This document shows, in pieces, positions 1 through 1,175 of a stretch of 34,878 nt of DNA. Both the position numbers and the translations under genes were made by a program. Every line of letters begins with the position of its first letter. Positions within the stretch are counted from its first letter, which is position 1. The stretch spans positions 1 through 34,878 of the forward strand of contig CAISJE010000203.1 of assembly GCA_903885635.1 (NCBI GenBank). Direction: 5' to 3'. Under the pieces are notes generated by a model, which did not search any database, was not told the DNA's origin, and was given only the letters and a program-made list of their open reading frames with translations. This stretch comes from an uncultured bacterium (GTDB taxonomy: Bacteria > Cyanobacteriota > Vampirovibrionia > Gastranaerophilales > Gastranaerophilaceae).

Positions 1-78
1 AGTTAAATAGGTTTCCTCTAAAGTGTGTGTTTTTCTGTAATCTATTACCTTTTTTCTCAAGTCCAAAGAATATGCCAT
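1..78 (-). CDS. IS630-family transposase, N-terminal fragment (cut by window edge)
   Basis: The 26 visible residues begin MAYSLDLRKKVIDYRK and continue with a His-Thr-Leu-Glu-Glu helix. This resembles the start of IS630-family transposases, whose N-terminus is a helix-turn-helix that binds the element's ends. The DDE catalytic domain would lie to the left of the window. The ATG at 76-78 follows a textbook SD (GGAGGTG at about 84-90), and a consensus promoter sits upstream. Whether the full gene is intact cannot be seen. The family call is from the N-terminal pattern only. Confidence 0.72.
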   Translation of the reverse strand, partial: MAYSLDLRKKVIDYRKTHTLEETYLT

Positions 79-96
79 AATTTCACCTCCGCTATT

Positions 97-125
97 ATTA
101 TACCATATTTCATTGTTGTTGTCAA
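97..125 (-). promoter_or_regulatory. Consensus sigma70 promoter of the IS630 transposase
   Basis: On the minus strand there is a perfect TTGACA (120-125), a 17-bp spacer and a perfect TATAAT (97-102). It lies about 20 bp upstream of the transposase start codon. It is the closest match to consensus seen in the window, which fits a promoter carried by the element itself. Confidence 0.8.
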
Positions 126-281
126 CTTAAATTACTATAATTCGGCAAGTGCCGTAAAGATTAATTCGGCTTCACTCATGTGGTCCCTTAAATTTTGCGA
201 AGTTAAACCTTTTAAATCTTTATGGTCTTGTACCGACAAATCAGACCACTCTTGGTGAATGATGTTCGTTAAAATTGCGTA

Positions 282-498
282 TGAGCTTGCGGAAAAATTA
301 CATCTCCTCTTGTTTTCGAGCAAAGCGAGAATTGCAAGGGAGGGTGCTAGGATAGTAGGAATTTTTCTCGCAAGCTCCCTTGTCCGGCTCGCACTCATAC
401 CACCGGCTATCCCGCAGCTGGTATGAGTGCGAGCACTTCCAAGGTCGGACTTGAAAAATCTCAAAAAACTGTCATTTTTTGGATTTTTCCGCATCCTC
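282..498. mobile_element. 217-bp MITE-like element with TA duplication
   Basis: It interrupts the BRO-like gene between a Glu and a Tyr codon. TA dinucleotides flank it at 280-281 and 499-500, and removing the element plus one TA restores the reading frame exactly. The ends are imperfect inverted repeats of about 16 bp sharing GAGnnTGCGGAAAAAT (left 283-298, right 483-498). The middle holds a perfect 15-bp inverted repeat (388-402 with 419-433, 16-nt loop), and further weak pairings lie outside it. There is no plausible gene inside. TA targeting suggests mobilisation by an IS630/Tc1-type transposase. Its ends do not match the visible end of the neighbouring IS630 copy. Confidence 0.82.
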
Positions 499-581
499 TA
501 TTCTTTTCCCTCTTGAATTTCGTGTTCTTTCCAGTAATCAGTCAACTTATTCCGAGTTTCCTGCCCTGTCATTCGCTGCTG

Positions 582-676
582 CTTGGTTGCTCGCGATTAA
601 CGGGTCTACGGATTGTCCTGCTCGTCTTGCTTACACAAGCCGACACCGCCAATCCTTCGCCCTCAGCTCGCAATCC
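582..676. other. ~95-bp insertion in the BRO-like gene
   Basis: On the coding strand, the family-type run Asp-Lys-Trp-Ile-Gln is separated from Gln-Arg-Met-Thr-Gly-Gln by about 95 bp that contains an in-frame TGA. A 4-bp GCTG (plus strand) is present on both sides (578-581 and 677-680), as expected for a short target duplication. The insert has similar direct motifs near its two ends (GCTCGCGATT at 589-598, GCTCGCAATC at 666-675) but no clear terminal inverted repeats. Its type is unknown. Confidence 0.6.
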
Positions 677-1175
677 GCTGTATCCATTTATCGCTTCTGC
701 CGAGCTTTTGCCAGTTCTCTCTAGCTCTATCAAGCGATTGAGATGGGTCGGCGATTTCTTGCATTCTTTCGTAACCGACTTTCGCAAGCCATTGTTTAAT
801 CGGCTCCGCTTTTTTGCTCGGTACTGATTGAACTATTCTCAACATAGTTTCGACATCTGCCATGTCTGTTAACCGCATTTTTCCGTCTTCAGCTTGTAGT
901 TTCAACCGGTAACATTTTGTTACCGGTTCACTTGCACCTTCATTAATAAGTCGTCCTTTTAGTCCTTTCCAGTACTTTCTTGCCGATTGATAATCCTTCT
1001 CAATCAAAATTGCAATAACATCTACAACAGAAAAATAATAAGTTTCTTTTTCTTTGTCATAAATGTGTCTGATTTTTTTGCCTTCAAATATTTTTAAACC
1101 TTCCATGCTAACCCCCAAATTAATATGTTTATAATTATTGGTGAAAAGTAAAACGGCAAACAAAATATATATTTC

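Follow-up and report, generated by a model that had tools for sequence, protein, structure and literature searches.

MITEs that duplicate 3-4 bp of target in Gastranaerophilales, an uncultured order of gut bacteria

A Bro-N gene in a 34,878-nt stretch of DNA (the window) is broken by a short sequence rich in hairpins, which raises the question of what this sequence is, what moves it and how its hairpins are kept. The sequence is very probably a non-autonomous MITE whose hairpins reflect template switching together with selection and which is moved in trans by an insertion sequence that has almost identical 16-bp ends and makes 3-bp duplications. In the following, G000 is the genome containing the window, G001 its sister genome and G012 a genome of another genus.

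The window copy and the gene it interrupts

The window copy was 216 bp long (positions 283-498; Table 1), with a G+C content of 48%. Its terminal inverted repeats (TIRs; 283-298/483-498) were 16 nt long and 88% complementary, and the central hairpin was perfectly paired over 16 bp (387-402/419-434), with the conserved loop core GC-TATCCC-GC at 406-415. The fold was much stronger than that of shuffled sequence (z = -8.8; 0/200 shuffles). Inverted ends of about 16 bp and a strong, perfect internal hairpin had both been claimed in the first-pass annotation, and both were borne out. The copy represented a long form, in which 57 extra nt lay inside the loop of the left (first) hairpin.

Table 1. 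Features of the element and of its host gene in the window
Feature	Positions	Strand	Basis or remark
Left target-site duplication copy, TAT	280..282		sequence; 3-bp rule across 90 copies
Right target-site duplication copy, TAT	499..501		sequence
Left terminal inverted repeat GAGCTTGCGGAAAAAT	283..298	+	sequence
Right terminal inverted repeat, GAGGATGCGGAAAAAT on the - strand	483..498	-	same as one end of the insertion sequence with about five copies
Left hairpin, outer arm 283-297 with 363-377 (GAGCTTGCGGAAAAA / TTTTCTCGCAAGCTC)	283..377	+	fold; helix 1 covariation
Central hairpin, arms 387-407/414-434	387..434	+	fold; alignment; covariation
Right hairpin, arms 453-467/475-489	453..489	+	fold; covariation, helices 4-6
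57-nt loop module	301..357	+	TA at both sides: 299-300, repeated 356-357
Interrupted host gene, Bro-N domain (DinD-like)	135..1106	-	Pfam PF02498; joined frame; plasmid homologues

The Bro-N gene was broken twice, by the element and again, at about 582-677, by another insertion. When the flanks of the element were joined with a single TAT, they read in frame (...KEHEIQEGKEYAILTNIIHQEW...) and gave the restored reading frame ...IQEGKE/YAILTNIIHQEW... after excision. The Bro-N protein read through both insertions aligned end to end with intact plasmid Bro-N proteins at 45-51% identity. Frame restoration upon removal, which had been proposed earlier, was therefore upheld by the joined flanks and by the full-length plasmid homologues. 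No family was assigned to the restored protein in a comparison with NCBIfam.

The second insertion measured 96 bp (582-677) and was apparently flanked by CTG (579-581/678-680). In G012, a sequence resembling it (GCTTGGTTGCTCGC...GCTCGCAATCCGC) came after one of the MITE ends (L203, minus strand from 846). Window positions 1-137 closely resembled the beginning of a further contig from the same genome (C205, L008), indicating a common repeat, which is perhaps the IS630 end that the first-pass annotation had mentioned.

Copies, spread and shortened forms

The sequence was neither single-copy nor without relatives. Copies were found in the genome itself, with 48 matches in G000, and in related genomes, at least 64 of the 383 genomes of the order Gastranaerophilales carrying the family (a lower bound, with the best two candidates per genome scored). 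About 20 full-length copies with 92-98% identity were present in G000. The usual form was 159 bp, with 22 matches in G000 and 20 in G001, and matches of 155-159 bp, with identity down to 68%, occurred in further genera and families of Gastranaerophilales. The TIR pattern returned 37/42 forward/reverse matches in G001 vs 3/1 with the reversed control; the respective values for G012 were 55/59 vs 0/0. When GTDB contigs were scanned with the pattern, 85 stretches were recovered. Those with an order or class label belonged to Candidatus Gastranaerophilales or Melainabacteria, one being Candidatus Adamsella avium; Ruminococcus, "proteobacterium" and "cyanobacterium" each occurred once among the other labels, and many stretches were unnamed. 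No copy was found in the phage and plasmid records searched. The element pattern was matched by one IMG/VR contig, and 39 viral contigs with the TIR pattern were left out of the analyses.

TIRs were present at both ends and were the same in full-length copies, whose length was 159-216 bp and which contained no transposase gene. The element is a MITE, an identity already given in the first-pass annotation and supported by its multiple copies, TIRs, target duplication, empty sites in the sister genome and lack of coding capacity. Bacterial insertion-sequence MITEs are described as 50-500 bp long, with TIRs, a target-site duplication, no transposase, an intergenic location and high folding potential (PMC10969869), features which they have in common with the present family. 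However, the window copy is not AT-rich, as bacterial MITEs in general are, and the family also differs from them in that its stems covary order-wide and its subfamilies have different duplication lengths. Pneumococcal BOX and RUP, of which BOX is modular, are likewise small, highly base-paired, multicopy and non-autonomous (PMC3049150); compared by description, the present family differs from them in its 3-4 bp duplications and its ends. REP, BIME and REPIN sequences are likewise palindromic and abundant with short solo forms (PMC3116915, PMC2817692), whereas the present family makes 3-4 bp target duplications. No MITE of the order Gastranaerophilales was encountered in the papers searched, although one may still have been described elsewhere.

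Most copies were intergenic, 7/54 being located within ORFs vs 41 expected, so that genes are avoided; this 54-copy context set does not include the window copy, which lies too near the contig end. The 159-bp form did not contain the 57-nt module, which did occur in the long G012 copies as well as in a second MITE family. At one orthologous site, the 159 bp present in G000 were represented by a 36-bp perfect palindrome in G001. Some of the short forms, at least, therefore probably arose by deletion. The likely deletions are those between the repeated hairpin arms, which would have reduced certain copies to about 36 bp at their original sites.

Three side observations were made among these loci. 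The second MITE core family (L112, L204, L205, L208 and L215) had related ends, a length of 155 bp when complete, a central hairpin GTAAAAGCC...GGCTTTTAC and 3-bp duplications. In L202, L203 and L272, other sequences sat precisely within the loop of the central hairpin, which looks like an insertion hot spot. The 157-bp copies L065, L228, L245 and L247 had conserved flanks in common (TTTAAACACTT...ATTATTTAAACAG), indicating that they probably spread within a larger repeat.

Covariation in the hairpins

When the 44 full-length copies were aligned (alignment A1), changes on both sides were observed in 24 of the 41 pairs of the three hairpins. The covariation score was 0.353, vs 0.152 (sd 0.007) in shuffled alignments and 0.05-0.08 with slid partners. 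The central stem was nearly wholly different between subfamilies (CATACC.../GGTATG vs CAGGTTGTGTG.../CACACGACCTG), and most positions of the loop core GCTATCCCGC showed at least 90% conservation in the same alignment. Changes in both arms numbered 12 in a set of about 35 close copies, vs 1.5 expected when the arms were re-dealt; the C>T/G>A pair of the window copy was one of them. The loop was inverted in L248 (GCGGGATAGC), and L262 contained an imperfect inverted loop (GCAGGATAGC). Mismatches on the modelled strand were 24 G-T vs 17 A-C cells in the central hairpin and 8 vs 10 in the right hairpin; in helix 1, G-T outnumbered A-C by 16 to 4 cells.

According to published work, template switching between inverted repeats leaves homogenised arms together with an inverted loop (spacer) as its signature (PMC8604942; also PMC8794818). 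In an RNA under selection, G-U would be preferred on the strand of that RNA, and the hairpin pattern therefore points mainly to the DNA level: the homogenised arms, the inverted loops and the central and right hairpins, where G·U was not preferred over A·C, point to template switching on DNA. During replication, one hairpin arm would be copied from the other, which would largely account for the kept complementarity, and such a switch would rewrite both arms at once and occasionally flip the loop. The hairpin structure is conserved across the order, and its covariation is partly explained by template switching. However, template switching alone leaves the loop conserved across subfamilies with differing stems unexplained, so a share of selection is likely. 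The conserved loop GC-TATCCC-GC suggests such additional selection, which probably also acts on the central hairpin as a whole, and the transposase or a host protein perhaps recognises the hairpin when extruded.

In its strongest form, this idea makes the central hairpin with its constant GC-TATCCC-GC loop a specific recognition device, as extruded DNA or as a transcript, that binds either the transposase or some host protein and is selected as a structure order-wide. We consider this unlikely as it stands. If true, the element would be a structure-coded parasite whose stem sequence turns over, and not what deletion has passively left of an insertion sequence.

A still less probable reading is that the family is mainly a functional structured RNA, or an RNA-like regulator, that is mobile by chance, with covariation resulting from selection on the transcript. 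The strong covariation in all three hairpins would fit such an RNA, as would the loop kept while the stem changes and the G-T excess of helix 1. However, G-T and A-C mismatches were about equal in the central and right hairpins, neither strand being favoured, and an Rfam covariance-model search with three loci gave no match up to E = 1. Orientation relative to tandem neighbours was unbiased (12 same vs 13 opposite), and the 54-copy set had no constant genomic setting. Further, the arms changed jointly even in very young copies and the loops inverted. "Compensatory changes" within a young repeat do not by themselves prove a functional RNA.

With template switching and selection as the preferred account of the stems, the three-hairpin shape kept despite sequence drift is a useful case of structure preservation in tiny mobile elements. 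The family is also a large natural hairpin series, whose related copies record homogenised arms, inverted loops, insertions into loops and deletions in place, so that the roles of template switching and selection in hairpin upkeep can be compared.

Target duplications and an insertion sequence with matching ends

Exact 3-bp flanking repeats were found in 37 of the 90 distinct flanked copies vs 5.1 expected with shuffled flanks, and exact 4-bp repeats in 27 of the 90 vs 1.7 expected. By hand counts, in which the nested copy L184 is listed twice, the TTGTCCGG-type subfamily had a 3-bp repeat in 33/42 copies and the GGAACGGTTTC-type subfamily a 4-bp repeat in 24/47; one set of ends was thus found with two target-duplication lengths. 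The 3-bp duplication had no fixed sequence, and AAG, AGT, CAT, AAGT and CGAT were among the 3- and 4-bp examples. When the sites of copies in G000 were compared with G001, the flanks of L010, L011 and L003 were continuous and ungapped, with a single target copy. The site of L002 was unoccupied with a 2-nt indel, and the alignment at L016 ran across the junction with small indels. The L012 site was occupied in both species. As this site was occupied in both and at least four others were empty in G001, the family has been mobile after the two species separated, and a part of its copies was inherited.

The first-pass annotation had described "exact" boundaries at 282-498, with a length of 217 bp and a TA duplication. 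The inverted ends were retained and the length and the TA were not, the element being 216 bp flanked by TAT. Both readings delete the same 219 bp and leave an identical empty site, so the window copy, which can be read as flanked by TA at 280-281 and 499-500, cannot separate them, and the family counts decide. The TA model fitted 7 of the 90 copies, with exact 3- and 4-bp repeats dominating, and the empty sites showed a single 3-bp target. Non-TA duplications at sites with a known empty version refute TA-targeting for the family, and an IS630/Tc1-type MITE duplicating TA, as in RUP, which is linked to the TA-targeting IS630, is highly improbable. Just as improbable is a REP/REPIN-like element whose hairpins are acted on by a transposase of single-stranded DNA (Y1, TnpA-REP). 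Such an element would suit the high copy number, the palindromes and the REP-resembling 36-bp solo forms. It would not suit exact duplications of 3 or 4 bp with clean empty sites, since the Y1 transposases of REP systems, like IS200/IS605 and RAYT enzymes, are not known to duplicate the target.

An insertion sequence with ends GAGGGTGCGGAATAAT/GAGGATGCGGAAAAAT, 3-bp duplications and about five copies was found in G000, its interior being absent from the assembly. Five contigs began inside a repeat that had GAGGATGCGGAAAAATTAGC... as its outer end; other contigs began inside a repeat that had GAGGGTGCGGAATAATTCC... as its outer end, followed by a promoter-like stretch and the ORF start MSIKNDTGLS. 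Towards the missing interior, the ends read ...CAGGAAATTAACCTCATTTT and ATGAGTATAAAAAATGACACGGGTTTGAG. Contig ends C153/C123 could be joined with an AAA duplication and C157/C120 with a CTA duplication, each restoring an open frame. A Pfam HEPN_Apea match spanned the C153/C123 junction, showing that both ends belong to one insertion sequence.

Mobilisation of the MITE in trans by this insertion sequence is inferred from the ends and the duplication length common to both; each insertion would duplicate 3 bp of the target. The first-pass annotation had expected another TA-targeting transposase with the same ends, and the matching ends were found here while TA-targeting was not. The TIRs of the insertion sequence and the MITE matched and their interiors differed. 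This unlike interior counts against mobilisation in trans with template-switched hairpins, as does the G-T excess of helix 1, which would fit RNA. The insertion-sequence ends were not found in 59 relatives, nor in plasmids, viral contigs or, with a degenerate start-codon pattern, GTDB contigs, and the 383 family genomes yielded just remnants in G001 and short weak matches. A search of all analysed loci for an autonomous element, as TIR pairs 600-3500 bp apart with duplications, returned chance pairs only.

IS5-family insertion sequences such as IS427 and IS1031 have GAG ends and 2-4 bp duplications. The present insertion sequence, known here from its ends, likewise starts with GAG and makes short duplications, and presumably recalls this family. 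In the account of the Nezha MITE of cyanobacteria cited in PMC3049150, ISNpu3-like elements are the proposed movers. Likened by that description, Nezha is likewise a MITE paired with an insertion sequence through common TIRs in the same broad phylum, but its hosts are photosynthetic cyanobacteria, unlike those of the present family.

A DDE_Tnp_4 gene, the sole match in G000, was rejected as the source of the transposase; it was IS5-type, did not have the insertion-sequence ends and lay on a contig of Bacteroides-like appearance. On contig C75 (L379) of G000, an IS5-type transposase adjoined an OmpA-like gene, and from its gene content this contig looks like Bacteroides contamination of the assembly. 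At C153/C123 (L108, L053), the gene interrupted by the insertion sequence was of a known anti-phage type, with an ApeA N-terminal domain and a HEPN_Apea domain.
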